A stretch of 64,000 nucleotides of DNA from Loxodes magnus (lineage: Eukaryota > Ciliophora > Karyorelictea > Loxodida > Loxodidae), in assembly GCA_946699065.1 (NCBI GenBank), contig CAMPDV010000308.1, positions 186,001 to 250,000 of the forward strand, written 5' to 3'. The stretch's first letter is position 1, and every line of letters begins with the position of its first letter. A model generated the notes under the pieces. That model saw only the letters and a program-made list of their open reading frames with translations, ran no database searches and had not been told where the DNA came from. Shown here one piece after another: positions 20,719 to 64,000 of this stretch. Position numbers and translations under genes: made by a program.

Positions 20719-21990
20719 ATGGTAGAAAAATCTTATTCTTATCTATATAATGTGGATCCTGAGGATAGTTTAATCAGAGCAAATCCGTTCAAAATTCTAT
20801 AAATTCCTTCTGATGTTAGTGAAGGTAAAACAAAATCCGCTTTTAGAAGCAAAATTTCTAGTTCAGACAGAGATATGAGAAGACGTGCTACTTTGGCGTG
20901 TGAATATTGCTTAGATAGAAATAAAAAATTTAAGCCCAATTTCTATTATGCTCTAATTGGAAATGTTAGATTTTTGAAATAGTGTCGATAATTTCTAGAT
21001 GATGTTGACGAAAACGACGAGCTTGGCAGAACTGTACTATATATAGCAGCTAGATCAGGATATTTTGACGTTTGCTAACTTGCTCTAAAGATGGGTGCTA
21101 GTGTGAATGAACTTCACTAATGTGGAAGTACACCACTTCATGCCGCAGCATTTTATGGTCATTAAGCTATAGTTGAACTTTTGATTCAATATGGAGTAGA
21201 TACTCGAATTAAAAACAAATGAAACGGAACGGCTCTTAATGAAGCAAAAACAACAGTCATTGAATAAATAATTACAACAGGAATGAACGATAAAATTGAT
21301 TCTCTCGCTTCTAAACTTATTTCTAATGGATTGGGCACTAATGTCAAGCTTATCACTCATGGTTAAAATACTATTGGAATTAGGATTCTCCGCAATTTCT
21401 AGAATTAAGATTCCACTTCCAGAGCGATCGTAAATAGCTCGGAATTTTAGTATGATTGGGATCCTGCTTGGCATGGAACGAAATATGCCTATCTTGAATC
21501 GATTATGTAGAGTGGCCTTGTCTGTAGCGGATAAAAAACACTAAACGGATAATTTATAAAACCTCCTTCCGGTCATTATAAATTAGATGAAACTCATTTC
21601 GGAATATAAAATTGGGCGAAAGCTATCTTTTTATCTCCAAGTATTTTTTATGCTGCTGATGAATGTTACTCGGAAAAGATCACAGCTCATAAAGACAGTT
21701 GGCGTATATTAATACAGGCCAGAGTCAAAAAGGGAAGTTTCAAATCTTATGATCCTACCACTTACAAATATGAACCAATAGAAGGAGAGCCTGCTTAGCC
21801 AGAGTGAAGAGTTGAAGTTAGGGACACTCAAACTACTAATCTAATTATGAGAACAGAAAGTAAAAGAAATGTTATAGTAACTGGCATCGTTTTCGTATTG
21901 AATGACTTTCTACTTAACGCTAAAAACTATGTTGATGGTAATCTTCTCGCTGATTGGTCAACAAGTTCAAAAATATTCTTTAATACATGA
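20719..21990 (+). CDS. Ankyrin-repeat protein with PARP-like C-terminal domain, copy 1 (423 aa)
   Basis: The ORF starts at ATG 20719 and ends at TGA 21988, the same length as copy 2 (37111). Residues 20-70 ('NPFKILQIPSDVSEGK') resemble a J-domain but lack HPD. About residues 95-180 form two to three ankyrin repeats ('GRTVLYIAARSGYFDVCQL', 'GSTPLHAAAFYGH'). The C-terminal half has 'WHGTKYAYLESIMQSGL' (His252) and 'AIFLSPSIFYAADE' (Tyr311), the spacing of the His and Tyr that hold NAD in ADP-ribosyltransferases of the PARP/tankyrase type; the fold call is inference. Trp168 is TGA here and TGG in copy 2. Synonymous changes dominate between the copies, so both have been under protein-level selection. 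It is divergently arranged with the minus-strand gene. Confidence 0.85.
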
Positions 21991-22400
21991 AGTCAACATT
22001 TTATAAATTTATTTTTATTCTTTTACCTTAAAATTTTGTATTTCTAAAAAGGATATCTGTAACTAAATCAAATAAACAATATCTTATTAAAGTGAAAAGA
22101 ATGAAAGTTTATACTTTTAATACATCATTTTCCTTTCTATATTTAATTAAAACAATTAAGCACCATATATCCTTAGTTCCTCTCAAATTTATAATATCTC
22201 GAAAAAGATTAAGGTTACTAGATCCTTCTTTTCTTTAAATTTTATATCTTCGTTCCCCATTCTTAATTATTCAAATATGAGTATTTTAATAATTAATTCC
22301 AAAACAAGTTACTCTTCATATATGGAAGTTATAATTTTACCTTCTTAGATAATATTTTTTAATTTGCTTCTATTTATCCATTCTTCGAAATAAAAATTTA
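21991..22400. other. 3' flank shared with duplication copy 2
   Basis: The first bases after the stop (ATTTTATAA) are shared with copy 2, then divergence rises sharply, as expected for a 3' UTR. Patchy similarity to 38383-38800 continues. No gene is seen. Confidence 0.45.
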
Positions 22401-22419
22401 TGTGTTTTCGCTAGAAAAT

Positions 22420-22880
22420 AACTAGATTTATTTATGAAAATCCTAATTCGGATATAGCCTTTTTACCTCAAAAATACAATAAATTTAACTTCACTACGAA
22501 ATATATAGTAGAAGCATTAAAAATACGATTTAGATATTTAAAGAACTTATGATTTCAAAGAGTTTAGAAAACACCTCAATATTTACATCTAAAAAAATCC
22601 TTCTAAGCATACTTTCAACGGAATGCAGCAATGTCAACAACAAAAAGATTTATTATCTAAATAGAAATTAATTAAAAAAGATTTTCCTTTATTAGCATAC
22701 ACTAAATATGCTAGACATCTAATTCAAGAAACTATCTCAATCTATAAACTAAGAATTTATACTTATAAATTTTAATATGAACTGAATCAGCGATATATCA
22801 ATACTTAATTTAATAAACTTTGTTTATGTAGATAAGAATTTGTACATTTTAGCACATTTCAACTTTAAACTTTATATATA
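22420..22880 (+). mobile_element. LINE 3'-end remnant (RT C-terminus with degenerate zinc finger)
   Basis: It is similar to 26440-26900. Both carry 'NPNSD', then 'TKY..H.I.ETISIYKLR' and then a zinc-finger region. Here the finger reads 'LCLCRQEFVHF', keeping C-x-C but losing the His/Cys of the intact-looking version 'CFCGQDFDETDHIFDC'. Several frame changes mean it is dead. It lies next to, and perhaps inside, the end of duplication copy 1. Confidence 0.5.
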
Positions 22881-25800
22881 CTTTTTTAAGAATTTTAATA
22901 AACATAAAATAATTAATGAAAAGATTGTAAAAGACTATTTTTATTAGAATCAAACTATATTAATAAATAATTTACAAAAATATGAGGATTAAAGTAGATA
23001 AAAATATTTCACCAAGAATTATTTAGAAGATAATTAAATTATTTTTAAAGACTAGAATGAAGAAAAAACAGATTATATTAATAGAAACCCATAAATAGAT
23101 TTAATCAGTTAATCAAGTCCTTATCAAGATGAGAGTAAAATAGAATCATGATTAAAAAAGTAGAAATTTTTAATTTTAGCATAATTTGCATGATTATATT
23201 CTAATAAGAATACAAATATGTCAAAATATTTCTAATATTGAAGCTCTTATAATTTATTGTTATTATTATTAAAATTCAAACAATATGAATTATAAAGAAT
23301 AAAAAAAATGTATTTGAATATTTCAATTTAAAAATAGATAAGCTATAAATCTTGAAGTAAAAGATGCTAAACAACAGAGAATTTGGATATCTCTTTAATA
23401 ATGTTTGCTTTAGTTTTAATATTGACCATTAATGCTTTAATATTCTATGAAATAATATGAAAAAGTTAAATATAACACTTTTAAGTTTGAAACAAATAAA
23501 ACAATTTTAAATCAGAATTTAAAAAGAAAATTCATAAAAGCATAAAAGCATAAAAAAATGTAAGTTAACTAGATAATTAAAATCAAATTATAAATAAAAT
23601 ATTTTATAAATTAGATCAACAATATTCTAATAATTTTTTGACAAAATCAGAAATTTAAATAATCTAATTTTTATAATTAATAATTTTTTTAATTTTTATT
23701 CAGACCAAGTAAAGTTTACTTTTTGATTGAAGTTTGAAAAATTTTAATGCTTGAAAAGTTCTCCTTTCTCAAAGAATTTTTTGATCTGTCCATTAATTCT
23801 TGCTTTCTCATCCGATCTTCCAGTTGTCAATGGAATGAAAGTTTTTGCCTTGCGTCAGATCAATTTGTAGTCAAAAACAAGCCAACTTTACGCTATTATT
23901 AAGATTAATTCTTACTTTTACTTAAAATTATTTTAAGAAAATCTTTATAATTAGATTTATTAGGAAAGTATACTCATTTTCATTTTTAAGTAGATATTTT
24001 TCTCTTTATGTTTTTCTTTTTTAAAAATGTAATTATTTTTTAAGCTTCTTTATAAGAGATATTTTAGCTTAAGATATAGGTGTAATTTTAGAAGGTTAGT
24101 TCAACTTATTTACTGTCTTAATTTTTAGAGTTTTTATAGTTAAAAACAATTAACTTAAAATTATAAAGATTATACTTTATTTACGATATTCATTTTATAT
24201 ATGCATATTTTTTCTCTTATTTATTAAAAAATCTCAATTTTTTGTTATATTAAACACTTTGGTCTTCATAAACTTCTGCTAGCAAATTTTAAGACTCTTT
24301 TTTTCCAATAATTAAATACATAAATTCAACCTTCCTTCAATTTCATTTTTTAACTTATAAATAGTAAAATAAACTATTTCTTAATATCCTCAAATATAAC
24401 TTATATATACTAAGAATTAATTATTTTAAAAGGTATTTAAAAGATAATAAAATCTATGTAAATCAATTTAATTTAATACTATATATGAACAATATCTTTT
24501 AATTATACTGTAAGTTATTAAATTTCATATGTTACTTGAATGTTGATATTATAAAATTGGAATTTTAAGGCCACATTTTCAGTATAATTTAAAAAAGGCT
24601 TAAACTTATTAATTATAAATTGAAACTAAAAACGATGCAACTGATAAAATTATTGTAAGTAATGAAATACTAAAAATACCAAAATAAATAAATGATGAAA
24701 TTAAAAACTAAAGGAGTAATAAAAAATATTTATAAGTATATATTCCTAATTAACTGTATATCAAACTACATAAATTAATTAAATAAAAAGTTTTAATTTA
24801 TTATACTATAGTAATTTATTATCTCTAATAAGAAATAAAAAAATAACTAGATAAAATAATTAAAATTTATTTATTTAAATGCTATAAATCATAAAAAATT
24901 GCTTCAATAATCGTTGATTAATCAATTTAATTAATTAATTGAGATATCAAAGATTTTTAACATGGTTATGTATAATTATATTTCTATTCTAATTCTTAGA
25001 TAGTATAAGCTTATAAATTAATACTGTACTTATTTAATAATATGTAAAGCTATTTAAATAAATAAATAAATTTAAAAAGGTCATTAAGATAGATTGCAGA
25101 TATTATTATATTTAATATATAAATATGATTAAAATTAATAAGCAAGATCTTTTTATTCTGCTTATTATATACTTTATAATTTTAAATTTTTGCTGAGTAA
25201 CAAATTCGATCAAAAAGTTTATTCGAGTTTATGAAATTTGGAATAAAAATAAAATGAATTCTGAGGGAAGAAAGATTTTTCGATATAATGCTTCCTAAAT
25301 TTTTTTTAAATTCATTCCTTTTCTGCCTGAAAATATATGCTTAAAATTTAAGAGAAATAAACTAAATATCCAGTTTTGCCGAGTAGTTTCAAAAAATTGT
25401 AACATTAAATTGCTTCTGTTTAGAAATTAAAGTCACATTTTTAAAAATTTGAAAGAAAATTGACAATTTTAAAATGAAGCAGAAATTAAGATATCAAAAT
25501 AAAAAATTTCTCTATACATTTAAATTTATAAGAATAATAATTTAATTTTACAGAATTTGCATTCTAAGATTTACATATCATTCAAATACAACTTAATTTC
25601 TAAATAATTAAAATTAAATATTTTTTAATATTATTATTAAATATATTTAAATCTTATATTCTTAAAAAAAATTTACATTTTCAAATTTTAAGGAAATAAC
25701 AAAAAAAAAATTTAACTTTAATTACTATCAGAAATGTATTTTATTTTAAATATATAATTATTTAAGATAAAATATATTTATTTGTTAAAATCTTTAATAA

Positions 25801-26430
25801 CAAAATTTGATTATTTAAATTATAATTTTGATTATTTTTATCTCATTCTTATAGAAATTTAAATTATTTAAGTATTATAAAACTGATATAATGTTTGATT
25901 AAAATTCCTTTTATATTTCTTTAAAGCTAAAATTTTAGCCAAATTATTTCTTATATAGTAATTTAAACTAACTATTCTATTAAAATTATCTATTTATTAT
26001 AAGTTTATAAATTTATTATTACTTTATATTAATTTAATTTTCAAACCAAATATTATTCCTTAATAAAATTTTACTTATTTAATCATTTAAGAAAAAAGAT
26101 ATTTAAATAGTAAAGTGAGAGTTAATTTATCATTATTTCTAAATTATTTCTAATTAATTATTGTGATTTTTGCTGCTTCTACCTATGATTAAATTATAAC
26201 TGTTAGAATTTATTTTTTTAAGTTTATTTACTATAATAAATATTTAAAGTTATTTTATGCTTTTTTATTTTGCATGCGTTTATATCATTTTATAAGCTTT
26301 ACATAATTATAATAATTATTATTATATCAAAATATCAAAATTCTTTATTAAAAAGAGGATTAATAATATTAAATAATTAGAATCTTAATAAATCATTTCT
26401 TAATATTTTAAGCTTTAAAATGTATTTTAA
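22881..26430. other. Very AT-rich region, no gene recognised
   Basis: Low-complexity AT-rich sequence. A GC-richer stretch at about 23700-23890 holds no motif I recognise. Confidence 0.35.
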
Positions 26431-26439
26431 TCTTATAAA

Positions 26440-27220
26440 TCCGTAAAATCCTAACTCAGATACTACTTTTTTATTAGAAAAATGCACTAAATTTAATTTA
26501 CCATACTAGAAACATATAAAGAAATGTATATATTTGTATAATTTTGACATTTCACATGTTTAGATAATATGGAATTTTATAAACTCACAGAATAAAAAAT
26601 AAAACATTAATTCTTAATGGAATGTCTCTCTAGGAATACACTTATGCCAACATCAAAAAGAATTATAGACTAAATAGAAAATAATTAAAGTGTATTTCTG
26701 AAATTATTTATACCAAATATAATAAACACTATATTAGAGAGACTATTTCTATCTATAAACTGAGGACTTTTTCTTATAATTTTCAATAAGAACTTATTAA
26801 TCGCCACATTAACGTTAGATATAGCATTATTTGCTTTTGTGGCTAAGACTTTGATGAAACTGATCATATTTTTGATTGTTAATACTATGCAGATATTATT
26901 GAGGAACTTGAAAGTCATAAAGCTTTTAAAGAAAAAGACAAGAAGAAACTAATTCTTTATGACTAAAACTATATAAACAAACATTTTTGTAAAAGTCAAA
27001 TTCCTAAAAAGATAAATTAATTAAAAATTTTCATTCTAAATTACTAAAAAAGCGTATTGAAATGTTTAAACTACAAGACTAACTTTTAGAAGATTTTCTA
27101 GAAAGAAAAAAAAAGATAAATTTCATCAAGACAATAAATAAAAATATATGATAGAGAAAGAACAAGAAGAAGCTTGGTTGGCATTTGCAAACTTTTATCT
27201 TTCAACATATTTGTAATATT
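26440..27220 (+). mobile_element. LINE 3'-end remnant with RVT-type zinc finger
   Basis: One frame encodes 'ETISIYKLRTFSYNF', then 'CFCGQDFDETDHIFDC', then 'YYADIIEELESHKAFKEKD'. C-x-C-x9-H-x4-C placed after a long basic stretch is the zinc finger that closes many LINE ORF2 proteins. The upstream part needs a frame change and no RT catalytic block is left, so this is a 5'-truncated or decayed copy, as is usual for LINEs. Confidence 0.6.
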
Positions 27221-27229
27221 TATAGTCTA

Positions 27230-30200
27230 AGCTATATTTTCTGCATATATGTCTCAATATTCTTAAATATTGAAACTATTATATTTTAATTAATTAATTA
27301 ATCTTATAAATCTGTTGAAATATAATTTAAAGCAACATATTATTAATAAATTTATATTAATAAAAAAATTAATAAAAATAATGTTGACCAATAAGTCAAT
27401 AACTATAATTATTTTATTTAAAAAAAGTAAAATTTTTTCTAGTTTGCATAGTAACATAAATAATGAAATTTTAAACAAAATTAGATTATAATTTAGGAAT
27501 ATGTAAAATTAGCGTGTAATTTATTTTTTTTATTTTCTAAGATTAGTTAAAAATTACTATTTTTATAACTATTATTTTTAGATTCCAAAATAATCAAATA
27601 ATTAATCAGTATTTGAGATTTATTAATCTCACTAAATTTTTAAATTCATCGTTATACAAAATATTGTAGAACTTAATTTCTTAATCTTACAAAACTAAAT
27701 TTTAATTTCTTTGTCCATTTTTATTAAGATTATTAGAAGTTTTATTATTTAAATGAATTAGCATAAAATTCTTTAAATTTTAATTATAAGCATTTAATTT
27801 AACCTCTTATTTGAAAAACTCTTCTTTTATGGTTTGAAACTGAGAAACGCTGATGAATAAATTTACAATTTTTCTTTTATTTAAATTTGTTTTTAATAAT
27901 TTATCTTGATAGGAGATTTATATTTTACCTCAATTACCATTAAAATTTGGTGTCATTTAAAAATAAGAAGTAATAACTTCAGTAACTTAAACCTTTTCTA
28001 CTTCTCTTATTGTATTTTAAATGAAAAGTGATAATGAATATTCTTTATTATTATTCTGATAATAAAATCAATTAAATTACTTTCTAAATAGATCTCAAAG
28101 ATTTAAGCGCCCAAATGACATCACTGAATTAAAAGATAAGCTTTTCTTTCTAATCCACTTAATTATATTGATTCCACTATTTATTATTTAAATTTAAAAA
28201 TTCAAAATTAACCTCCATTTATATTTTAATTTTTAGTTATTATTTTATTTGCTATCTATAATAGTTTTCTTCTTTAATTTTATACTTCATATAGATTTTA
28301 TAGTTTCATCACCTGATTAGCTGCTGAATCTTACTGGATTTTCAATCTCTATTTGATTTAAGTTATTCTAAATTTTATCCTCTGCAAATATATTAAATCA
28401 TGATTATTAAATTTTGATTTAGCTTCTACTATATATCATATTTATTTAGTTATAATTTGATTAATATAATATTTATAAAGTTTTCACTAAATTATTTAGT
28501 TAATATTTTTAATCTTAAAGCCAACATTTTTTCCTTAGTTTATAATTAAATAATTATTTTACTTAATAGTTAATAAAGGTAATTATTTTTATCGTAATGC
28601 TGATTGGAATTCCTTTCTTACTTATTAGAAATTTAAATTTTTCTATTTTCTCTGAAGGAAAATTAAAAGATATAAGGTATTAAAATATTTTGATTAGATT
28701 ATAAGTATAAAATTTAGAAATTAAATAAGCTTTGAATGTAAGTTTAAATTCAAAAACGATTAGCTTTTCCTATTATTATCAGTAATTTAAATAAAATTAG
28801 CATAACTATCAAACTTTTCTAGGCAATAATTTTAGAACCCCATCGTAACTAAATAACCTTAAATTAAAAATTTATTAATTAATTCAAGATTTACGAATAA
28901 GACTGAGAAATTTAACCTGCTAGTTTTCTTTTAGGTAGCCTTAAATATAATAAATGAATAAAATAAATAATGCTAAATGATATTACATAAATGGACTAAT
29001 ATATTATAATGTGATTATAATTAGAAATATAAACACACAACAACTAAAAAAGTACTATATTAATATGCAAATTATTTCTATTATATAATTGACATAATTT
29101 TGCCATTTAAAATTTATATTTAGAACTAAGATAGAGTAAATATCACTCTAGTTATTTGTCTCTTTGTACATATAAAAAATAATAATGTTAAACTAAAAAA
29201 ATAATAAATTAAACAATAATAAAAATAGAAGCATTTCATGACATAAACAATAATCATATTTTTTTAATAATAATATACTGAATAGTTATAATCTTTAACT
29301 AACATACTTTTTGCATTTTTTCCATCTAAATTATTTAAATTTTCTCTAATAAAAATTTAGTTTTTTCTAGTTTCAGTTTTTTCGATTTACTAAAGTAAAA
29401 GTTTAAAAAACTATAAATTTTAGCTTTTTTCATAATAAATCTTATGAATATTATTAAAATCCAAGTTAGTAATTTACTAATTTATTAGGTTTAAAATTTA
29501 TATATTAAACCAATTATTCTATCTACCGATATACTATTTCCTACTTGCTTCATTTTTTACTCATTATTAGTTTAACTTAAATAAATAAAAAGTTTTAACA
29601 GATAAAAGAGTTATTGAAAATAGTATTTTAAACTTAAAATTTTAATAAATTCAAATAAATTTTGTCATTAAACTAACTTTTATAAATTAAATAAAGTAAT
29701 TTTTTTTTGACTGATAGGCATTTGATAATAAATGAATCGACAACAAAAATTTGACATATAAGAATAAGCAGGTAATTTGTTTACGAAAAAATGATTAATA
29801 TAATTATATTTGATCTTAAATATTTTCTACCACTTAATTAACTTTGCTTAATTCATTTTTTTAAGTACACCTTGTATTTCATTAAACCATAAAAATACTA
29901 TTTTTTAAATAGATTTTTATAAAGGTTTGATACTTTTAGTTATAGTAATTTTTTAATTATTATAGGAGATAAGAAAATATTTCAAAGGATTTCTAAACTT
30001 CTTCTTACAACCTATTAAAATTTTGGTATATAATTTAAAAATTTAATGCTAAACTATTCTATCTCTTTAAGTCTAAAATTTAAAATCCAGAAATTAAAAA
30101 AATAATGTTAAAAAATGTATAACTCAGAATTTAGATTAATAGCCAAGTGTTAAATAATTTAATTTTTTGTAGGTTCTAAAATATGAAAGTAAAGATTAAT

Positions 30201-31220
30201 GTAAATAGCTAATTTAAAATAAAGTAATAAAATTTTAATTTCTATATTTTTAAAATCCCTAAATTTTTCTTCTTTTTCATTCCAAGAAGGTTTATATAGA
30301 AATCTTTTTTATATATAAAAAGAAGAAAACAAAAAATAAATATCTTTAAGATTAGTTACTACAATCCTGATAATCTTAATTTAATCTTTAATTTATATTT
30401 TAAACATTAGTAGTGTAAATAAAGAAGATTCTACTATCAAAAGTATTTAAAGTTTTTTGATTTTGGTACTTAGAATTTTAAGATGGAAATTATGAGTTGC
30501 AATTAGATTATTCACACGAATCTTCAAAATATATATTTTAGGAGAATCTGATCTCTCAAAATTTGAACTTGCTTAAGTATATTCGTGCTAATTAACTATC
30601 TTAATTTTAGATAATTAAAGGACCAAACCTTCAAAGTATCACTATTTAAATGAGGTAAAACTAAACTTAATTTATAACATTAAGATATAAAAGGCTTAAA
30701 ATTAATGAAAATATAGCATATAAAGGAATATAAACAGTTTCGCTTGGTATAAACAAATTAAATAACTAATAAGAAAGTAGTTTTTTGAAGAAAGATAAAC
30801 AAAATAATGACATGAAAATATATTATTGAAAGAAAGTAAAAGCATATAATAAATAAATACATGGATACTTAATAATTTTCTCTTGATAAATTAAAAAATT
30901 AAAAATTAAAACCTTTTTATGATATCTTTAATTCTAAAAATTTACTCAAATTAATTACATCATAATAATATTAAAAAAATAATATATTTTTTTAATTTTT
31001 TAATTAATTTTTAGATATAATCTTACTAAATAAGGAAGATAATCAAATGTTTATTTTACTATAGATAAATAATTTAGCAAAAATGTATTTGAATTCAAAT
31101 AACTTATCTTTGCTAATAGGTTAGTATTTCTGATAGTAAAAAATTAGGTAATAAAAAAATAATTTTCAATTCTTTTTAAAGGATTTCCTTAAATTTTAAT
31201 AATATAATAATATAATATAC
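27230..31220. other. AT-rich region, nothing supported
   Basis: Among the most AT-rich parts of the window. I saw no domain, RNA gene, or repeat with a clear unit on either strand. Confidence 0.35.
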
Positions 31221-31227
31221 TTAAAGT

Positions 31228-33625: not shown

Positions 33626-33627
33626 AT

Positions 33628-37110: not shown

Positions 37111-38382
37111 ATGGTAGAAAAATCTTATACTTCACGATATACTGTAGATCCAGAGGATAGTGCAATTAGAGCTAATCCATTCAAAGTTCTCTAGTTAACT
37201 TCGGGTGCAAGCTAAAGCTAAGTAAAAACGGCGTTTAGAAATAAAATTGCTAGTTCTGATAGAGATATGAGAAGACGTGCTACTTTGGCATGTGAATATT
37301 GCTATGATAAAAATAAGAAGTTTAAGCCCAATTTCTATTATGCTCTAATTGGAAATGTTAGACTCTTGAAATAATGTCGAGAATTTCTAGATGATGTTGA
37401 TGAAAATGACGATATTGGCAGAACTGTACTTTATATAGCAGCTAGATCGGGATATTTTGACGTTTGCTAGCTTGCTCTTAAAATGGGTGCTAGTGTGAAT
37501 GAACTTCACAAATGTGGAAGTACACCACTTCATGCTGCATCATTTTACGGTCATTAAACTATAGTTGAGCTATTAATTCAATATGGGGTAGATACTAAAG
37601 TTCAAAATAAATGGAACGGAACAGCATTTGAAGAAGCAAAAACGACAGACATTGAGTAGCTAATTACAACAGGAATGAACGATAAAATTGATTCTCTCGC
37701 ATCTAAACTAATTTCAAATGGATTGGCTACCAATGTAAAGCACATTACTCACGGTTAAAATATTATTGGAGTTAGAATTCTCCGTAATTTATAGAATTTA
37801 GATTCCATTTCTTTAGCATTAGTCAATAGTTCAGAATTTGAGACGAATTGGGATCCTGCTTGGCATGGAACGAAATATGTCTATCTTGAATCGATTATGT
37901 AGGGAGGTCTTGTATGTAGCGGCGAAAAAACAGTTAATGGGTAAGTAGTTAAACCTCCTTCCGGTCATTATAAATTAGATGAAACTCATTTCGGAATATA
38001 AAATTGGGCGAAAGCTATCTTTTTATCTCCAAGCATTTTTTATGCTGCTGATGAATGTTACTCAGAAAAGATCACAGCTCACAAAGATAGTTGGCATATA
38101 TTGATATAAGCCAAAGTAAAGTAAGGAAGTTTCAAATCTTATGATCCTACAACTTACAGTTATGAGCCAATAGATGGAGAACCTGCATAACCGGAGTATA
38201 GAGTTGAAATAAAGGATAGTCGAACTTCAGATCTAATTATGAGACTTGAGAGTAAAAGAAATGTTATAGTTATTGGCATTGTTTTCGTACTGAATGATTT
38301 TCTTCTTAACGCAAATAACTATGTTGATGGAAATCTTCTCGCTGATTGGTCTACAAGTTCAAAAATATTCACTAACACATGA
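37111..38382 (+). CDS. Ankyrin-repeat protein with PARP-like C-terminal domain, copy 2 (423 aa)
   Basis: Collinear with copy 1 (20719) over all 423 codons without a gap, ending at TGA 38380. J-like N-terminus, ankyrin repeats ('GRTVLYIAARSGYFDVCQL') and the 'WHGTKY...GGL' and 'IFLSPSIFYAADE' motifs are all kept. Codon 168 is TGG here and TGA in copy 1. A Gln in 'ILIQA' is TAA here and CAG in copy 1, and 'CQLAL' uses TAG here against TAA. Most differences are synonymous or conservative, which indicates function in both copies. The two may differ in the N-terminus, where change is concentrated (residues 6-40). Confidence 0.85.
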
Positions 38383-42390: not shown

Positions 42391-42428
42391 TTATAGAGCG
42401 CGTAGCACTCTCATTGGTGCGCAGCTCT
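42389..42428. repeat. Shared hairpin motif, site 3, directly after the Gag-like gene
   Basis: GATTATAGAGCGCGTAGCAC, then TCTCATT and GGTGCGCAGCTC. GAGC/GCTC and GCAC/GTGC pair. It is nearly identical to the complement of 33897-33940. It starts at the stop codon of the preceding gene. Confidence 0.55.
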
Positions 42429-42439
42429 TTAAAAAAATG

Positions 42440-42556
42440 TTTCATACTGACAAGAATGTTTCTTACTGATAAAATTATCAGATAGTGATAAACCTTGTTC
42501 AATACTGGTATAATTATTCAGTACTGATAAAAATGTTCAATACTGATATAATTTTA
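42440..42556 (+). repeat. Short degenerate tandem repeat of TACTGATA units
   Basis: About six copies of (T/A)ACTG(A/G)TA occur at intervals of roughly 15-25 bases, separated by AT-rich linkers such as AAAATTATTCAG. Confidence 0.55.
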
Positions 42557-42584
42557 GAATGCTCGTAATCTTTAATACTTGCTG

Positions 42585-42835
42585 GAGGTCCAAGGACATG
42601 GCAGGATTGTGTCTCATTGCATCACCAAAGCAGAGGACGACATGTATCAATTATGGGTACTTAAATTCCCCACCTCTGATGAAGCTCGCAATATTATTTC
42701 TTTTTCGTTCCAGAATTAAATCCAAATTAAGCCATTGCCGAAGGTCTAAGAATCTTATGTCTCGAGGCCAAACCAAAGCAGAGGAAGACATAAAGTCGAT
42801 TATGGGTACTTAACTTCCCCAACCTCTGATGAAGA
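42585..42835 (+). pseudogene. Tandem remnants resembling a LINE endonuclease segment
   Basis: Two units about 150 bases apart share ACCAAAGCAGAGGA and then GGGTACTTAA(A/C)TTCCCC and CCTCTGATGAAG. Unit 1 encodes 'GHGRIVSHCITKAEDD' followed by 'LWVLKFPTSDEARNIISF', a pattern like the 'GR...NVYAPNSDEER..FF' part of LINE AP-endonucleases. Unit 2 keeps 'LWVLNFP' only after a one-base shift. The CAGAGG/CCTCTG ends can also pair, so an RNA role is not excluded. The position downstream of an ORF1-like gene favours a broken ORF2. Confidence 0.42.
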
Positions 42836-42879
42836 TGACTTTGTTGTTCACCTTCAAACAACTATGGCGGTTTTAAAAA

Positions 42880-43320
42880 AAATATAAAAATGTTTGCTCA
42901 ATTTCAGGCTATTTCTATCCGTTTTGGAGTAGCCGATTTCCTTTAGTGATGGAATCACTCTCGAAACTCAACTTTTTTTTGCTACTAAATTTCTGGATTA
43001 GATCTTCATTTTCTCTTATATATCTTTCTTTAAAGTTCAATATAATTTTTCTAAATTATTAGGCCTATTTCTTTCTCGTCAGTATCTCTCTTACCATAAT
43101 GCTTTTTATCTTTTCTAATAATTAGCACTACTGATATAAATGTTTTTCACTCCTAAAGCAGCAATATTTCTTCGAAGTTTGCTTAACTATTATCTCCAAG
43201 TGTATAATGACGGTATCTTTTTCATTCTTGTTATCTCTGATTTCTTTTATCTTCTAGTTGTGTGCTTTAGAGTTTCAATTGCAAATTAAGTTGATTTTTT
43301 TTATTTTTTCATAACTTTTT
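42880..43320 (-). pseudogene. Possible Gag-like fragment, tail to tail with the gene at 41434
   Basis: One minus-strand frame gives 'YCCFRSEKHLYQQC', resembling 'CFCCGSVWHLYRKC' of the gene at 203 but with wrong Cys spacing. Lys/Glu-rich sequence ('FKERYIRENEDLIQKFSSKK') follows. Other frames also look protein-like, so the call is tentative. Confidence 0.3.
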
Positions 43321-44370: not shown

Positions 44371-44598
44371 ATGATGGTTACTGTTTAAAAATTGTAGGAA
44401 ATCTGGTGTAGTATATACTGCGTTGATAGTAATCTTGTACTATATGCCATGACGGAGGAGTATAACAAACTCGGAGGGGACAAGCCTAACTTGCCAGAGG
44501 GATCTCGCTTGCAGTATGAACACTTGAATGATAGCTTACTCTTAATCAAAGATTTTTCATAACCAACATTGAATTTTCTGACTGTATATGCTGCATGA
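44371..44598 (+). CDS. Small orphan protein, 75 aa
   Basis: A sharply bounded GC-richer island matches exactly one frame from ATG 44371 to TGA 44596. The start reads 'MMVTVQKLQEIWCSIYCVD', the middle 'AMTEEYNKLGGDKPNLPEG', and the end 'SQPTLNFLTVYAA'. Gln is encoded by TAA and TAG. The stop begins a perfect 14-base palindrome shortly after (GAAGTAGCTACTTC). Length, composition and clean edges suggest a conserved small cytoplasmic protein. I do not recognise the family. A structured RNA was the alternative and is less likely, because the frame has no TGA and reads naturally throughout. Confidence 0.6.
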
Positions 44599-46951: not shown

Positions 46952-47647
46952 TCACGAAAATAAAGAATATATCTAAGCATAAAAGGAAGAATACTCTTTA
47001 CCAAGTAACTATCTTATATTCTCAAGTGTTTCTTCCTTATTCTGTAACTAGCTATTCATCTGCTTTATATTAAACAGAAATTCGTTAAATAACTCATTTG
47101 GAAGCTCAGCCTTTATCTTCCGATATAATTACTTTGCATCCAAGACTTTCTACTACTAACCTTCCTTCTACTACTCAGTTTTCAAATTTCGTTGAGAAAT
47201 TTAATAATTGGTCTTCTAGTTTCCTTTCCTTTCATTAAATTGCATTTTATTCATTTGATTTTTGATAACATCTTAATACAGACTATCATCTATAACTTTA
47301 AGCGTCGATATTAAGTTAGTATCCCATGTATTTTCTTCCAAAGAGCTCAATAAAACTTTTTTAAGCTAACTAAGGTTTTCATTCTCAGCCTGCAGTCTTT
47401 ATTTCTACTCTTAAAGGTTCTAGTTCTCATCATCAAGCTCCTAGATCTCATTCTTCAACTCTTTCAACTCTTAATCTCTCTAACTGAACTATTCTTAGAT
47501 ATTTTCCAGATGTTGTTGCTTTTAGAAATGTTCTTGCTTTGCCTTCTAAAGCTACCTTTCTAGACTAGTTGTAGTTTTATTATACAGAGAGGAGATAATT
47601 CTTATAGTGACTTAGAGCTACTCTTCATAGTCTTAATCTACTTCCAT
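46952..47647 (-). CDS. Coiled-coil protein, 231 aa
   Basis: It starts at the complement of 47645-47647 and ends at TGA 46952-46954, with no internal TGA. The sequence opens 'MEVDQDYEEQLQVTIRIISS', then has about 80 residues of heptad-rich coil ('LKNEIQELDDENQNLQEQK', 'LQAENENLSQLKKVL'), a linker, and a second short coil ('NSQLQNKEETLENIRQLL'). Gln codons are mostly TAA/TAG. A decayed copy at 7580-8060 matches the N-terminus and the coil, which confirms the frame. It is probably a structural or scaffold protein; the family is not recognised. Confidence 0.72.
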
Positions 47648-47699
47648 TTTTATTTATTCTTTATATCGTCTAGCAATTCTTTTTGAGAAGGGATTAACT

Positions 47700-48850: not shown

Positions 48851-48859
48851 ATAAATACA

Positions 48860-49402
48860 ATGGGGAATTGCTTAAATAGAAGTCCTATACCATTTTAACC
48901 AACAGATGAAGCTTACAGACTACAAGATAGCTTGAAAATCCTTTTTTATATCCAGCTTGCAATTGGAGTACTTTTCTTATTTTTTGTACCCATGACAGGG
49001 TTTCATATTCTGATATAAGCTGCGATTCTATGATGTGGATATAGTAGAATGGACTACTGTACTATATTGCTTTATCTTATCTTTTGCTTGTATAGATGAA
49101 TATCTTATGTAGTCGATCTTGCAAGTTATATTTAAATTGGATTTTAGGTTTCGATGCTTTTCTTTCTGATTATTGGCTTGATCCTGTTTTATACTTATGC
49201 TATCTACTTGAGTTTTCTTAGTTATAGGGAGTTCAAAGCTTGCTCTTAAGACTCAGGAGTTGAAGGATATTATTCATAAATGGGACAAAGTAGTACTTAG
49301 TACGGGTAAAGAACTGGAGGATAAAGTTAATCTCAGACACAAAGCAGATCAACTGGTTCAAGTAATTTCGTGCCTTTTAGTGGAACTGGGTATAGACTTT
49401 GA
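48860..49402 (+). CDS. Small membrane protein with four predicted TM segments, 180 aa
   Basis: ATG 48860 starts 'MGNCLNRSPIPFQPTDEAYR'; MGxC is a pattern often seen in myristoylated/palmitoylated proteins. Four hydrophobic helices follow at about residues 26-47, 52-75, 80-97 and 102-128 ('VLFLFFVPMTGFHIL', 'ILLYLIFCLYRWISYVVDL', 'MLFFLIIGLILFYTYAIYL'). The last 45 residues form a polar Gln/Ser/Gly tail ending 'SNFVPFSGTGYRL' and TGA at 49400. An AT-rich spacer of about 90 bases follows, which supports the stop. One or two internal Trp are TGA. The layout resembles small tetraspan vesicle proteins, but no family is assigned. Confidence 0.68.
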
Positions 49403-49494
49403 TAAACGTATTTTACTAATAGTTTTTTACAATTTTTGGGTATAAAAAAGCACCAAAAGTAGCTTATTAAGTAATAATAATCAATCTAACTTTT

Positions 49495-55400: not shown

Positions 55401-56800
55401 GACATACTACGACCTAAAAAGTTACTTATCTAACTAATCCTCCAAGAGGCTCATAATCCACTTGCTTAGATATGAAATGAATCTCCTAGATTTTAACAAA
55501 GTTGAAGTTCCAGCTACAAATTAGAAGTATAAGTAGCATGACTAAAGTTGGAAGCGTTTAGAGTAATATAGCAAAAAATCTAAAGTTGATGTTTCAATTA
55601 GTGTATCTCAATAAATCAGTTAAATAAGCCATTGATTAGTTATAAAGGTTGGAAATATAAGCAAGGTAAATAGGGAAATTATCTAACATAGGCGTTATAT
55701 AAGAACTTAAATTTAAAAGCTAAGCTTCTAACCACATAGCGAAGATAATTTTTTTAAATTTTTTAATCTGAAAACGAGAAGAGACTCAGTCAAGACGATT
55801 AAGAGATCTGATTATTTGTCTACTTGACTTTTCTTATTTGATTCAAACTTTCTAGGAGATTTTTGGCTAATCACGTTTACCTAATTAAGTAATTAAGCGT
55901 GCCAATAAATTTTCCTGCTTAACTAGCAAAGAAATTTTAAGCAGGATACTTCTTTTCTTTTTATTGACTTTTTTGCTTCTAGTTCTGCATAAATCTTGGA
56001 TTCCTCATTCCTCCATCTTTGATATTGTTATTTAATTACCTTTTAAATGCATAAATTAGCTTCATACCTTTGCTTGCTCTTCATCAAGGTTTGACTTTAA
56101 AAAATTGGATTTAATTTATAATCTTTCAGTTATACGAGACATTAAGCTTATTGGCTTTCTTCTATTGATTTCACAATCGCTGAGCTTAGATTTAGCCTTG
56201 AGATTTATTACTTTCGAACGTCTAGACCACATATTTTGGTTTGCCTATGAATAGTTAAATTTCTGTCTTAAGCACTCTTCATTTATACTCTCTTTACTTG
56301 TTTAAGAACTAGCCTCCTTATGAAATACTATCTAGAAGTGAATTATAATTGAAACTTGATTAACCAGTTAAAAGGGGACAAAACTAATGAATATCAGCCA
56401 CTAAAATCAGTTATAAAGGAAAGTTTAAGCCTAGCAATTATGAGGTACTTTGTGTGAGTATATGAAGAAACAAGAAAAGCTACCAAACTTATCCTTAAAG
56501 GAAAAGAGTGAGATATTTCTAAAGAGTAATAATCTCTCTTTGTAATTTTTTAGTAGATCAGAAGTTATCTGTTTGCTTGGTCATTTTTTGATGTAGTTGT
56601 AAGTAAGCAGCAGTTATAATCTCTTGCTTATAAAACGCCTTTAAATTTCTACTCTCAAATAATATTTTTCCTTGCCATTTTGTACCTTAAAGAGTTCAAA
56701 AGATTAAAGCAGATTTTTGGCTTAAGGTATGATGACTTTATTTATGCTTAATCATCATTTTATTATCCTCTATCATAACTCAGCATCATCAATGAAAACC
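49495..56800 (+). other. Long coding-like block, one or more large genes, frames unresolved
   Basis: About 7 kb of less AT-rich DNA reads protein-like on the plus strand almost throughout. Examples are 'LPLNLSSSKVIIGQALNFI' (one frame, near 49680), 'SLDGYLVQEKKILDSCFVMV' (second frame, near 51150) and 'QATDKILEELTPKEMDKDK' (third frame, near 55190). The frame that looks best changes along the block, so introns or several genes are likely. Hydrophobic runs in 53.9-54.6 kb suggest membrane segments. With no reliable stop codon I cannot separate real frames from shadows, and I name no product. Confidence 0.35.
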
Positions 56801-56849
56801 GTTAAGCAAATATAAGCTTATCATTAACCTCCTTCACTATCTATTTTAT

Positions 56850-59084
56850 ATGTCCTATCATTATCTTCTTAGGTTATGTATTATAACATTCATTTCTGCT
56901 GTCTCATTTAATTCAGACCATTTAAAAAGTTCTCAATTCCAAGATGACTTAAATTTCTCAACTGGTAAAAAAAGTTTGTCCCATTTTCTTCATATATCAC
57001 ATCGATCTAGTTTAACCAAATCTATCTTTATCTTTATCTTATCCTTCTTAAAGCCAATAGCCTATAATAGAATTTTACATGCATTGTATGATAAATACTG
57101 CGAGCTATCACTTTATTTAAAAGCTGGTAAAGTTTCCAATCTAATACTTGCAACTTAGTCGAATTTAAAATATCTAAATGTCTTTATGATTCTAAGCTTA
57201 TAACTTATGCCACTAATATTCATACTAAGACATATTATTTAAATTCCCATTCGCTAAAGAAAATTCTTAATTTATTAATAATAGTGACTATTGGATTTAA
57301 TTTCAATACATATTCCTATGACTTAGAGAGCTATTTTCATATCTACTTTACCCTTTTTTAGGCTTCTAATTCGTTACCTAAAGTGCTTTTAATAGCTATG
57401 AAAAGGCTAGATTTATCCACTTGCTAATTTTGTTTCTGGATTTTGACTCTTTGATTATAAAGACTTTGGTATACCTCAGTAACCTTCCTCAGACATAACT
57501 ACCGATTACATCTAAAAAGCTTACTCGCCTAACTAATATTCATCTTTTAGGAAGATAAGAAACTAAAGGAGTATACCTAATCATTCTATACCCTCTTTGA
57601 CTAATTTTACTCTCTTAAAGATTGATCTCATAACAAGGTCTACCTAATCCTTCCATCCTAGCTATTTTAATATCATTTTCTCAGTTTGAAAATTGACACT
57701 ATGAACTGTCTATCGATACTATACCTAAGAAGTATATTAGTACTAGAATAGATCTGAGCTAGGTAATAAAGTGATTAGTTTAGCCTAGAATAGACAATCC
57801 TGTTATGAAAACCTTCTTAAGCTTGATTATGTTGAAGGATGAATGAACTAGGTAGAGACTAGTTTGCTACTCAAACTCTTCTAATACAAGGTAGGACAAG
57901 TAAAAGAGGGATTATCTTATGAGCTTCAGTTAAGCCTAGAAAAAGTCAATATAATCAGAACATTTCTTATCTTTGATCGTGCTATGAATTAGACTATTTA
58001 GATCCTAAACTCACTGAAATAAAACTGAATCATATGAACAGAATTAGTTAGGAAAAAGCAACTCAATTGCTAAGCAGAGTCAAGCTAATGAAATACAGTC
58101 ATCAGGCCTTTAAGTATTGCAGCTATTAAGAAATAAAAGTGGAATCTTTTAGGCCTTATCTAAGTTTGCTTAAATCTCATTCTAGTTTAATTACCAAAAT
58201 GTAAGAAGGTCCATAATTAAGTATCTTCAATCAAACATTTTTCTGATTATAGCTAAATGAAATGCAGTAAAGAGCAAGCAGTATGAAAGCAAGTAAGGAG
58301 GTTATCTGAATAAAGTAGGAAAAAACAGCGAAATACAAAGATCTAATATGACGAGTGATATAACAAGCTTCTCAAAAAGGATAAAGAAGATAATATCTTT
58401 AACTGAAGGATTATGAAAGATATGATTCCATTTATGATTCTCCTATTCATTACATTCTTTGGGTTCTGTACTAAATACATTATTATCAAGAACGAAGACG
58501 ATTAAGGTAGCCTATCTATGATGAGTGATTTTGGACTTTACTACAGATTAATTTTCGGTGATTTTGGATTAGTAGAAACCTTTTAAGATGGAGACAGTAA
58601 ACTTTCCCAGCTATGGATTATGTTCGTTATCAGTTCACTTTTCATTTCTTTGACTATGACGAATTTATTTATTGTGAATTTATCAAGTAAAAATGAATAA
58701 GTAATACTAGATTAAAATATCTTCAGCTTAAGAAGTTAAAATAGCAAAGCAAAAATTATAAAACCTAAAATTCAAAGGCAAAATAAGGATAATCTATCTA
58801 GTTCCATTCGATAAATTATGTAACAAAAAAGAATTAAGTGGACCAAAGGTAATGCTAGAGCATTCATTTTTCCTATAAGTCTGAAACTTAACTTATTACA
58901 AACATCTTCAATCACTAGACAAAATAATTTACTCAATCGCTACACAATTACATTGTTGGAGTTAAAATCAGAGTAGTAAAAAAAGTTAAAAAGGTAAACA
59001 GACAAATTAAAGACAAATGAAGACTTCTAAAATCATTAAGATAGAATCATTACTATGGATAGAGTTTTAGTAAGTGAAAATTGA
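56850..59084 (+). CDS. Ion-channel-like membrane protein (ion-transport/TRP-PKD type C-terminus)
   Basis: One frame runs from ATG 56850 to TGA 59082 (744 codons). The C-terminal third is the most secure: a TM helix 'MIPFMILLFITFFGFC', a pore-like loop 'LIFGDFGLVETFQDGDSKL' and a last helix 'LWIMFVISSLFISLTMTNLF', then a basic tail. This S5-pore-S6 order is typical of ion-transport channels of the TRP/polycystin group in ciliates. Upstream there are hydrophobic stretches ('VFMILSLQLMPLIFIL', 'FISTLPFFRLLIRYL') but no clear S1-S4 set, so parts of the N-terminal frame may be wrong. About eleven Trp are TGA. Three TGAs cluster at 59082-59102, a plausible strong stop. The block at 49.5-56.8 kb could be its N-terminal part. 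Confidence 0.5.
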
Positions 59085-59394
59085 AAGCAAGATATTTGAA
59101 TATGAGTAAAGCTAACAAGATTGAGCCTATTTATATTCAAACGCTATAATAAGAAATATAATTATATTTAAACCTTTAGCCTTTTATTATATACTGTTTC
59201 TCTTTATTTAATAATAAATTGCGACTTATTTATTAGCCTAAATTTTTTAATTTTCCTTACTGTTTTACGCTTTTTTTATTATATTTACATTACTTAAGAT
59301 ATTACTTATTTAAATTAACTAAAAACTGAGAATTATCATTAAGGAATTTGAAAGTTGGATTATCACTTATTTAAATTAGAAAAGGCTTGTATGA

Positions 59395-61461
59395 GTTTAA
59401 TTATATTTTTCTACTATATTAATATTTAGTAATATTTGCTAAGTATACCCTTTCTGTTATTTATTTGGTACTCTTTCTCAGAATTTGGGGTTTCTTTAGT
59501 TTTAAAGCTTTTTATCTTAAATAAAATTCTTTGGCTCATTTCTGCTTTATTGTATATTTAAATCTGCAAATTCAGGTTACTTACCTTTAATTTAAGCTGA
59601 AGATCTATCTTATTATCTAATAAAATACTACTCCTTTGCTCGGCTTCTATATCTATACTTCGTTTATTCTTTTGATTTTAACTGTAATTAAAAGCATTAT
59701 TTTAAGCAAGGAGGGTATCATTTTATTTTTACCATTCTTCAATAAAATTTTAGTTTTTTCAGGATCGTTTATATCTTGAGCTTTTTCAGAAAAAGGATAA
59801 TCTTTTTTATCCATCGAGTTTAGAAATATTTCCTATTTATTCACATTCTTTATAAGCTTTTATGGGTAAATTTTTAGCTTTGAAAATTGATCCAAAGCCT
59901 CTTTAGATTGATAATTCAACTTAACAATTTTAAACCTCATAATGACCTAAAAATCTCTGAAGAGAGTATTGAAAAGGATGTTAATAAACTCTTAGTATTT
60001 TGGATTCTTGCATTTATCTACGAAACAGGTAAAATGATTATTCTTATTTCAATACGGTTATTAAGACTTATTTTATGAGGCGTTTTACTTTTCTAAGTAT
60101 CCAACTATTATTTTTCCTAATTTCTTAGCTAGAATTTGCTTCAATACGACTTTTATTAGTTAATTTTCATTATATTTTAGTCCAGCTACTAAACTCCTCC
60201 TTGGAATATCTCTCTATTATTACTTTCCTTAATTTGCTTCTTAAGAGATTTACTTCTGCATACATCACAAGCAAACAGATCTGCTCTGCTTTATAATTCC
60301 CTAACCCCACTAACTTCTTATTTTAAATTTTCTGTTCTTCTCCTTATCTGGCTTTTATTATGGTTGCTTCTCTTTTAGAATGAGTTATAGATTAATAAAT
60401 AATAGGTTGACAATTTAAATTAAGATTAGTAATTATATAAAAATTAGGGTAATAACATACAAGTATAGGAGCAAAGAAGCACATTCTTTGATATTAAGAA
60501 ATAAAGGAATCAGCTTTACAACTTTCTCAAGAGGCAATAATATCAGTATCACTTAGTTATCGGAAAGACTCTCTGCAAAATGGGAATTTGACTCTTAGAT
60601 GACAAGTCTGATTGACCTGATAAAGGTGTTGATAAATGATTTTAATAAAAGTTTGAGAATAGAAATATAAAATATGTTAGGAAAGTAATTTGAGAAGAAA
60701 AGAAGTTATTCTATAGATAAATATGACAATTATTATAATCCCTTATATTGAAGATAGCAGAAAGCGAAAAGATGCTGAAAGCTTATTAGGTAAGAAAGGA
60801 AGTTCTATTTGAAGATAAATGAACATTGGTGCTTTAAATTTAAAATATTAGACCTGAAAATGATTAATAGTTTTATTATGAGAAGATTAATCTAAAATAC
60901 TTTAAGAAAGTTTTATTCCACTTGAAACTAACGAATAATGACATCTTACTAGTAAAAAATATCTGAGTATAGAAGAAATAGCTTCATTATAGATTAATAC
61001 GCTGGGTTAGGAAATTTATTTGCGAAAGAGATGAATAGGAGATTAAATCAATTGAAGCTTTTCTAAGCAAGGAGTTTCTTGCTTTCTTGAATATATAAGG
61101 TGGTTACTCTGTTTTTTAGTAATTGTGCAACACAAAAAATCCAGTTAAGGTTAAAATATTATTTTCCCAATATTTGTTGAAAAGAAACTTGGTTCCTTAA
61201 CTTGAGAACATTTAAGCTACTATTAAGAATAAAAATATAGTAATTGAAGTAAAAAGCTATCTTTCAAACTAGAGTCTGTAGATAGAGATATCAAATATTT
61301 TTATAGGAATGAGCAGATGAAAAATTCTAAACCAACTGAGGACCAAAAAGATAGAAATCACCAAAAATTAGTTATAAGCAACAGATGCCAATAGAAAAAG
61401 ACCAAATTCAGAGAATTAAAAATCAAAAAAATTCATAATTGGTTTGTGCTAGAGAAGCTGA
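59395..61461 (+). CDS. Multi-pass membrane protein with basic C-terminal half, unidentified
   Basis: A frame bounded by TGA at 59392 and TGA at 61459 has many hydrophobic segments in its first 350 codons ('FVYSFDFNC', 'IVYILSFFRKRIIFFI', 'LLVFWILAFIYETG'). A soluble, Lys/Glu/Asn-rich half follows ('IAESEKMLKAYQVRKEVLFE', 'VRKFICERDEQEIKSIEAFL', 'IEVKSYLSNQSLQIEIS') and ends 'LCQRS'. No start ATG could be fixed. Another good-looking frame continues from 61446 to about 62250, so the gene may extend through an intron. No family recognised. Confidence 0.45.
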
Positions 61462-62810
61462 ACAATATTAAAGGAATTGAGTATAAAAGCAAGGGTTGTA
61501 AGTATAAAAATTCCACTTTCTCTAGAAATAGATTAAATAGAGAAAATATATACCTTAGCTATGCAGGCAGTTTAAGAAAGTTCATGTGCTTTTATACAAA
61601 ATATAAATTTAAGAAATATTTAAAAGGATTTATTATAAACATAACAGTTTAGTTAATTTTACTCTTAAAGTGGGCTAAATAATTAAAAAAATTAATGTAT
61701 AAATTGATTTTATAAATGATTATGCAAATATGAAAAAATATCTAAATTTAAGTGCATCAGGAAGAAATCTAATTAGAAAGCAAATAAATCTGTCAGAAGC
61801 AAGAAAGAAGCTCTTAACGAAAAAGTGGATATATGGTTGTTGTAGTAGAAGGAAAAAATTAATTAAAGCAGTTAAACTATGATTTATCTAGAAAAGCTAG
61901 AATAACAATCTTTTGGATATTAGTGGATTAAAAAATTAAAACATAAAAGGCCAAGAAAGTACTTAAAAGTGATTAAGTATTTTTCAACGCAATTCTGAAA
62001 ATCACAAAAAAGAAAAAGTAAGAGTTATAAGTATTTAGTTGGCTTGCTAATCTTAATAATAATTAGAATGGCATGACTAAAAGAGAAAAGTAAAGGATAC
62101 TTACTCTATCTTAAAAACAGTAACTAATAAGTTCAAAGCCACCTATTAGATTATAATTTTAAGTTATGAATTTCTTTCTTGAGATTATTATTTATGAATT
62201 TGCTTAAATCCTAACTGCTATGAAAATAAAAAGCTTTGCATATAAGTTCTGTCTTTGAAGTGCTTTTTAAAATTACTTCTGTTATCTATTCATTAATAAT
62301 AGCTTAATGAGCTATATTAAAACTGTTAGTGCAAACAATTATTGAATTCTCTTAGAATTATAAATTTAAGTATATGAAGTTAGTATTTGATCTTAAGCAA
62401 ATTAGTAATTTATTGATGTAATATATCTAAATACTTACCCTCTTTAATAATTCTTAATCACTTATAATTGTTCTGAATCGCTTTCTTTTATCCTCTAATT
62501 TTTAAAAAGTTCCAAGCTATCTCAGCTCGATTTTCAAATTTTACTTTAAATCCCCACACATTCAATCTGCTTACTTTTATTAGGTAGCATATTGTTGGGA
62601 TTTTAAACTAGTTTTGTAGCTTTTTTCATTGATTAGTCTCTTATTTTCCGAAAACTTTATATGTAAACAATTATTTAATACCTTCAGCTTTTATGATGAT
62701 TAGTTAATGATAAGCGCACCTGCTAATTTAAAGGAAGACATATTTAAATCCTTAGTTTAATTTAATTCGGTTTAAAAGGCTTTAAAGACATTTTATTTAT
62801 AATTTCCACT
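61462..62810. other. Possible 3' exon, then intergenic DNA
   Basis: To about 62250 one frame still looks coding ('NNIKGIEYKSKGCKYKNSTF', later 'LNYDLSRKARITIFWIL'). From 62250 to 62810 the DNA is AT-rich and presumably includes the promoter of the WD40 gene; no element is identified. Confidence 0.35.
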
Positions 62811-64000
62811 ATGTCTGAAGTAGAACTGAAACAGCCAGTCATTAGCAATGTTTCTAGAGAGACTGTAACTTAGCCTCAAGTCTCAAAATAAGATTATTAG
62901 GATATCTACAGCTTATTTGAGAAGGCAAGTTTACTCTACGATGGGAAGGCTTTGGAAGTTCCTGAATAAATGGAATATAAAGCAACTCTTATTGGTAAAG
63001 ATTCCAACCTTTTCTATTTGAAGGATAACTAGATCCTAGTGAAATCTTTAGTTATCAATAAATTTTTGGAACCTGTTAAAGTCAAGAAACATATTATTAA
63101 CCTTTACAATACGCAGTTTAATGTTCTTTTGGAATCATCGAAGCACAATTTATATCTTTACGATGCATTTTCCTTCCAGAAGCTAGAAAAGATCAAGGGA
63201 AATGGTCTAAACATTTTAAGTACTTCATTTAATTAAAGTGCTGTAGTGATTGTTACAGGCTAAGGCGGATTAATCTTATTAAGAATTGTCAACAACCAAT
63301 GCAAAGAAAGATTTTTAGCCTTTGACAAAGAACAAGATTTTACTCAAGCTATGGTAACTTCGGACTGCAAAACCATAGTTGCATATTCGGAATGAAAGTA
63401 ATAAATCTTTGTTTATGCGAAAAATCCCTTTTAACTTCTTTGGTCTGAGTCAATTAAGGTAGATTGAAATGATAATCCCATGAAGTTTATTCAGTTCTCT
63501 CCAGATGAATAATATCTACTAAAAAGAGATAACATGAAGAAAGGACTTGTCTTATACTCTATTATGGATGGTACAGTGATAAATAAAATTCCTAATATGC
63601 ATGTGAACCCCATAAATAAAATTTTATGCTATGGAATTCATAAGATGGCTTTCACATGCGGAAAAGACAGAAAAATTAAATTGTGAAACGTTTAAAATGG
63701 ATAACAAATTGGAATCTTCTATGGACATGAAGATTCAGTTGAAGATATTATTCTAACGCCCAACTAGACATATCTATTCTCATGCTCTCTTGACTAATTT
63801 GTATTCATGTGATGCTTGAAAACAAACCAGATTATTGCTAAATTGGAGGCAGGCATCCCTTTGAATTTTATATAGTTTACTGATGATGCATCTTGTCTGG
63901 TAGCAAGAAAAAATGCTGGGGATTTTATACATAAGTATTGGATTCTTGAAAAAAACTTCGATGCAATAAAACTAGGTATTTAGTCCGAAAATGTCAATGA
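62811..64000 (+). CDS. WD40-repeat protein, 5' part (396+ codons, runs off the window)
   Basis: ATG 62811 starts 'MSEVELKQPVISNVSRETV'. After a linker, beta-propeller-like repeats follow. The clearest are 'FTCGKDRKIKLWNVQNGQQI' with 'YGHEDSVEDIILTP', and 'SCSLDQFVFMWCLKTNQI'. The diagnostic Trp of both repeats is a TGA codon, the best single proof here that TGA encodes Trp. TAA and TAG fall at variable Gln-like sites. Earlier repeats ('NLYLYDAFSFQKLEKI', 'QQIFVYAKNPFQLLWSESI') are weaker. WD40 proteins are scaffolds and the partner cannot be told. No stop is reached before the window ends. Confidence 0.85.

Follow-up and report, generated by a model that had tools for sequence, protein, structure and literature searches.

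A 64,000-nucleotide stretch of the Loxodes magnus genome, positions 186001-250000 of contig CAMPDV010000308.1 (C308), carries genes whose reading frames contain TAA, TAG and TGA codons. This stretch is called the window here, and plain coordinates refer to it. Its main subjects are two copies of an ankyrin-PARP-like gene and the 5′ part of a gene for a protein with WD40 repeats and an ion-channel domain:

20719-21990, forward strand: ankyrin-PARP-like gene, copy A; 423 codons plus a TGA stop (21988-21990); codons 168 (21220) and 363 (21805) are sense TGA.
37111-38382, forward strand: ankyrin-PARP-like gene, copy B; codon 168 (37612) is TGG; free of sense TGA; TGA stop at 38380-38382.
62811-64000, forward strand: WD40 and ion-channel gene, 5′ part; sense TGA at 63393, 63465, 63684 and 63810; extends beyond the window to an end TGA at codon 1284.

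The codon meanings in these genes are almost certainly those of nuclear code table 27, in which TAA and TAG encode glutamine (Gln), TGG and internal TGA encode tryptophan (Trp), and the sole stop is a TGA close to the transcript end. Table 27 is reported as the code of L. magnus (PNAS 2024, PMC11441545), and a TGA of dual meaning is already known from karyorelicts, this species included. That one codon can carry two meanings in a single gene genuinely departs from the textbook code. Added here are an independent check on the raw DNA of a gene family and 60 kinase domains, and descriptions of tRNA-Trp arrays, tRNA-Gln matches and the eRF1 gene of the same genome, which provide sequences for testing. 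Of these, the tRNA-Trp arrays alone may deserve closer study. The assembly comprises 705,730,643 bases in 7,843 contigs.

A first-pass annotation made from the letters of the window had named both gene copies ankyrin-PARP. Pfam found ankyrin repeats in both and a PARP domain in neither, so the PARP part of the name is unconfirmed. The annotation had proposed table 27 on the grounds that codon 168 is TGA in copy A and TGG in copy B, that an aligned Gln is CAG in one copy and TAA in the other, and that both copies terminate at TGA. Each observation was recovered, the Gln exchange at codon 333 and the terminal TGA at codon 424 of both copies, and with TGA opposite Trp, TAA and TAG opposite Gln and the gene-end TGA conserved between copies the proposal stands. 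Codon 363 is TGA in copy A and TAT in copy B.

The annotation had also suggested aligning more family members and tabulating the residues opposite these codons. A genome search with copy B returned 66 matches, 12 of which cover at least 421 of the 425 residues. These full-length copies form three lineages of four, three and five members that are near-identical within each, so the independent evidence amounts to three lineages and not 12 copies. One lineage has TGG at codon 168 where the two others have TGA, and at codon 363 one has TGA and two have TAT. At codon 251, four of the five third-lineage copies carry TGA and all eight other copies carry TGG. Internal TGA therefore faces TGG or TAT, and codon 424 is TGA in all 12. 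With one copy taken per lineage, the ratio of nonsynonymous to synonymous substitution rates (dN/dS) was 0.17, 0.23 and 0.18 over codons 169-423, much like the 0.20, 0.13 and 0.14 obtained over codons 1-167. Judged from these ratios, the codons after TGA 168 are under purifying selection. The alignment breaks into gaps shortly past codon 424. Together, the low dN/dS past codon 168 and the gaps past codon 424 indicate that the reading frame is kept beyond the first TGA and not beyond the second. No further in-frame TGA occurs in the 16 codons past the stop.

Internal UGA might instead be edited to UGG in the mRNA or lie in tiny introns, and 93% of L. magnus introns are reported to be 25 base pairs (bp) or shorter (PMC11441545). 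However, the aligned ankyrin-PARP copies exchange single codons without gaps, and the published counts of coding UGA derive from assembled poly-A transcripts (PMC11441545). The probability left to editing or introns is negligible.

Both ankyrin-PARP copies recur in inverted order on the same contig (C308:261997-263271 and 277513-278781). Over 4.2 kilobases (kb), comprising the gene and 1.5-kb flanks, the recurring stretch is 99.1% identical, as would result from an inverted duplication or an assembly fold-back.

The WD40 and ion-channel gene leaves the window and was read on with 6 kb of further contig (locus L009). The extended frame holds seven sense TGAs (codons 195, 219, 292, 334, 664, 976 and 984) before the end TGA at codon 1284. 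Two of these are the WD40 tryptophans that the annotation had read as TGA, and both were found as described, at 63684 (IKL-TGA-N) and 63810 (FM-TGA-CL). Pfam assigned WD40 repeats and an Ion_trans domain (E 6.2e-10, residues 932-1140), and the matches span stretches with sense TGAs. A second in-frame TGA lies four codons past codon 1284 and is a possible back-up stop. A gene fragment at 58404-58672, some 4 kb upstream of the intact gene, is 93% identical to part of it (L009:3934-4200). Elsewhere in the genome, contigs C1503, C119, C9 and C1832 carry long arrays of almost identical WD40 repeats, with TGA in 36 of 150 listed repeats as counted by eye.

Codon meanings were also read from protein kinase domains of the same genome; of 5,592 candidates 136 were scored, and the first 60 by table order were used. 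Their 15,335 codons include 55 TGA, 103 TGG, 295 TAA, 138 TAG, 159 CAA and 61 CAG. TGA occurs 55 times in frame versus 223 and 731 times in the two other forward frames; 25 domains have none, 19 have one and 16 have more. In a leave-codon-out test, each codon was assigned the residue most enriched in the other rows of the same alignment columns, and only places with 10 or more other residues were kept, which dropped 1 TAA and 3 TAG. As a control, 53 of 56 sense codons with a synonym and at least 20 places were correctly recovered. TGA was assigned to Trp (55 places, log2 enrichment 6.42, mean share 0.61), more than chance would give. In columns conserved at 70% or more, 25 of 26 TGAs fall in Trp columns. 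One invariant Trp column is written TGG in 36 domains, TGA in 18 and with phenylalanine (Phe) or tyrosine (Tyr) codons in six. Selenocysteine was rejected as the meaning of TGA because in these domains TGA faces Trp and not cysteine.

The Trp meaning of TGA inside genes is thus seen in the ankyrin-PARP copies, in their dN/dS and in the kinase domains. These data also bear on table 6, under which TAA and TAG encode Gln, TGA is stop only, and the genes at 20719, 48860 (described below) and 62811 are pseudogenes or split genes. The genes do end at TGA, and a gene fragment is present at 58404-58672. Pseudogene formation would not account for TGA standing opposite Trp instead of at random, for purifying selection on the sequence past an internal TGA, or for at least one TGA in 35 of 60 high-scoring kinase domains, and table 6 is given practically no credence.

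The same test assigned TAA to Gln at 294 places (log2 2.08) and TAG to Gln at 135 places (log2 2.25). At 2.1-2.3 the Gln enrichment is weaker than that for TGA, and CAA failed the same test. In the alignment of Loxodes and human eRF1, Gln stands opposite 7 of 13 TAA and 2 of 6 TAG codons. Since the kinase evidence for Gln is mixed, the meaning of TAA and TAG also leans on eRF1, on the exchanges between gene copies and on published work.

The eRF1 gene (locus L078) matches human eRF1 with an E value of 8e-159. The motifs GTS, NIKS and GGQ are kept, RAQNIKS stands where the human protein has TASNIKS, and Phe replaces the Tyr of the human YxCxxxF motif. The gene contains 20 TAA or TAG codons, no sense TGA and a TGA end; reading on past the last codon aligned to human eRF1, the first codon of stop type to appear is TGA. 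Within five codons of that stop, two further TGAs in frame (codons 437-442) are possible back-up stops. A second eRF1 match of near-equal score lies on the same contig. Another candidate from the search (L077) lacks NIKS, reads by eye like Pelota and was set aside.

TGA was the only stop in 12 of 12 ankyrin-PARP copies and in eRF1, a small sample in which rare other stops could go unseen. The Condylostoma-type table 28, in which TAA and TAG can also stop, was weighed against this. TAA and TAG are abundant, so that occasional use as stops would be hard to notice, and the WD40 gene and a coiled-coil-like gene at 46952, which fit a TGA-only stop, were read to the first plausible TGA on that very assumption. 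The conserved end followed by TGA in the 12 ankyrin-PARP copies and the TGA as first stop-type codon in eRF1 argue the other way, as does the L. magnus report, in which UGA is the only stop (PMC11441545). Table 28 is judged very improbable. Condylostoma magnum is reported to stop at UAA and UAG as well (PMC4967479), and no such case occurs among the Loxodes genes read here.

Bases -3 to -1 and +4 to +6 of 48 sense TGAs and 78 TGGs in the kinase domains were tabulated, with 7 TGA and 25 TGG left out as too close to domain ends. No clear difference was found at these six positions (smallest p 0.038 of six tests, uncorrected), and the likeness of the flanks implies no clear local mark of sense TGA. 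This bears on a model in which every TGA would terminate by default and internal ones would become sense through a local sequence signal. The weak difference at +6, one of six tests, is what such a signal might leave, but sense TGA flanks otherwise resemble TGG flanks, and Swart et al. 2016 argue against it in Condylostoma and Parduczia (PMC4967479). The local signal is considered very unlikely.

In the three tabulated genes with sense TGA, the one nearest to a stop is 61 codons away. In six genes, GC content is 0.31-0.34 in the coding sequence versus 0.13-0.23 in the 60 nucleotides past the TGA, matching the contrast between the reported L. magnus values of 33.5% and 18.6% (PMC11441545). UGA and UAA are reported to be depleted over about the last 20 codons ahead of the stop in this species (PMC11441545). 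The annotation had found it not obvious how a ribosome tells Trp-TGA from stop-TGA, a question that published work answers in the form of a model. The published model holds that UGA is read as Trp by default and that termination is set by nearness of the poly-A tail (PMC11441545, PMC4967479); a tRNA-Trp with a 4-bp stem is also part of the answer. The 61-codon distance, the low GC after the stop and the lack of a clear local mark agree with this model. Relative to the available portions of the L. magnus report, no difference was found: TAA and TAG are likewise Gln, TGA is Trp or stop and the 3′ flank is AT-rich (PMC11441545). UGA is likewise context-dependent in C. magnum and Parduczia sp., and in C. 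magnum no tRNA-Trp(UCA) is reported to have been found (PMC4967479).

ARAGORN and Rfam at gathering scores found no match in the window, and tRNA-Trp genes were located by pattern search and DNA search of the genome. Two genes on contig C148 (L072 and L073), identified as tRNA-Trp by ARAGORN and as tRNA by the Rfam covariance model, have the anticodon CCA and an anticodon stem UUCGA/UCGAC with the top position, U.C, unpaired. Allowing up to three mismatches, the tRNA-Trp pattern matched at 123 places (52 on one strand, 71 on the other), and the reversed pattern gave none in the genome. Among the 100 matches listed, 72 lie on C148, have the U.C form and are mostly 241-242 bases apart; the other 28, known as pattern matches only, lie on C67, have an A.C form and are about 187 bases apart. 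All 100 have the anticodon CCA and none has UCA, a result that does not exclude other tRNA bodies with UCA. Among the matches listed, the genome thus carries tRNA-Trp(CCA) with positions 27 and 43 unpaired and no tRNA-Trp(UCA). On C7736, ARAGORN left a match with a broken stem uncalled. When two tRNA-Trp forms were folded by minimum energy, no cloverleaf resulted, and the folds are not used as evidence.

A tRNA-Trp with a 4-bp anticodon stem has already been reported in Loxodes (PMC13092985, PMC12005148). The tRNA-Trp(CCA) described from Blastocrithidia and Condylostoma in these sources has the same anticodon and the same unpaired top anticodon-stem pair. In Loxodes, by contrast, tandem arrays contain two mismatch families (U.C, and A.C known by pattern only), and a few copies elsewhere have a 5-bp stem. 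The available portions of the two papers do not mention the arrays, the A.C form or the 5-bp copies, which the paper they cite may cover. The unpaired stem top might be selected, as the families differ at base 27 (U or A) and neither pairs with C43; a 5-bp class on contig C110 would then read UGG only, and the balance of classes would set the strength of UGA reading as Trp. This proposal is speculative and rather unlikely.

For tRNA-Gln, a first, stricter pattern gave nothing; a looser one gave 83 matches in the genome, and its reversed form gave none. The anticodon is UUG in 80, UUA in two and CUA in one:

C2342:10483-10527 and 61812-61856: tRNA-Gln(UUA) matches, pattern only.
C416:210408-210452: tRNA-Gln(CUA) match, pattern only.

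Candidate tRNA-Gln genes with UUA and others with CUA anticodons are therefore present on pattern evidence, and the pattern may miss other suppressor tRNAs.

A mechanism that combines these tRNAs with the poly-A tail is likely in Loxodes. UGA would be read as Trp by default through a tRNA-Trp(CCA) with only four anticodon-stem pairs, and UAA and UAG would be read by tRNA-Gln with UUA and CUA anticodons. At the last UGA, eRF1 would prevail because the 3′ untranslated region is short and the poly-A tail with its binding proteins is close. That Loxodes uses these tRNAs to decode these codons, and that the stop is chosen by its nearness to the poly-A tail, we infer or take from the papers cited.

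Several findings weigh against the code assignment or the mechanism. In the kinase test, the remaining one of 26 conserved-column TGAs falls in a leucine column, and TAA occurs in columns conserved for E, G, K, W and H and TAG in columns conserved for E, P and G (one-letter code). CAA was not recovered as Gln, with glutamate on top, and no Gln column among the 60 domains was conserved enough for testing. The base at +6 differs between sense TGA and TGG in that single uncorrected test. In eRF1 a TAA occurs 14 codons short of the stop, inside the published depletion zone. Three tRNA-Trp(CCA) genes on C110 (L070, L071 and L075) have a full 5-bp stem, so the four-pair form is not the sole form. 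Only 3 of 83 tRNA-Gln matches carry a stop-reading anticodon, versus 433 TAA or TAG among 653 Gln codons in the kinase domains.

Three further reading frames in the window had been listed by the annotation as ending at TGA:

44371-44598, forward strand: short open reading frame; 75 codons, TGA at 44596; gene status uncertain.
46952-47647, reverse strand: coiled-coil-like gene; 231 codons, 28 of them TAA or TAG; no sense TGA; end TGA at 46952.
48860-49402, forward strand: gene for a predicted membrane protein; TGA read as sense at 49031 and 49097; probable stop TGA at 49400-49402.

The claim stands for the coiled-coil-like gene, whose Pfam matches (E 0.035 and 0.037) are weak and miss the cut-off. 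In the gene at 48860, codons 58, 80 and 181 are TGA, and its one Pfam match is weak and misses the cut-off too; codon 181 (49400) is probably its stop, placed by composition only. The frame at 44371 does end at TGA, but with no Pfam match and a weak coding score it is unsupported as a gene.

The C110 tRNA genes (L070, L071, L074 and L075), with Trp(CCA), Met(CAU) and Arg(CCU) identities, are nearly alike in the body and diverge chiefly in the anticodon arm; they could be products of anticodon swaps, or pseudogenes. The Rfam family RF00005 gave 63 scored matches among 42,786 candidates. ARAGORN was run on 12 of 30 loci, including those on C78 and C103 and not those on C158, and all 12 were tRNA-Lys(TTT) at the match. 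Matches of one score repeat on C78, C103 and C158, some regularly spaced (527 or 1752-1753 bp). A search of 36000-64000 for inverted repeats of at least 60 bases found none. A dispersed repeat of about 490 bp lies at 42400-42890 with a minisatellite at its head (42441-42553); copies of 94-98% identity occur at L009, L054-L061 and L071, mostly tRNA-gene loci, and one of 82% occurs at L078.

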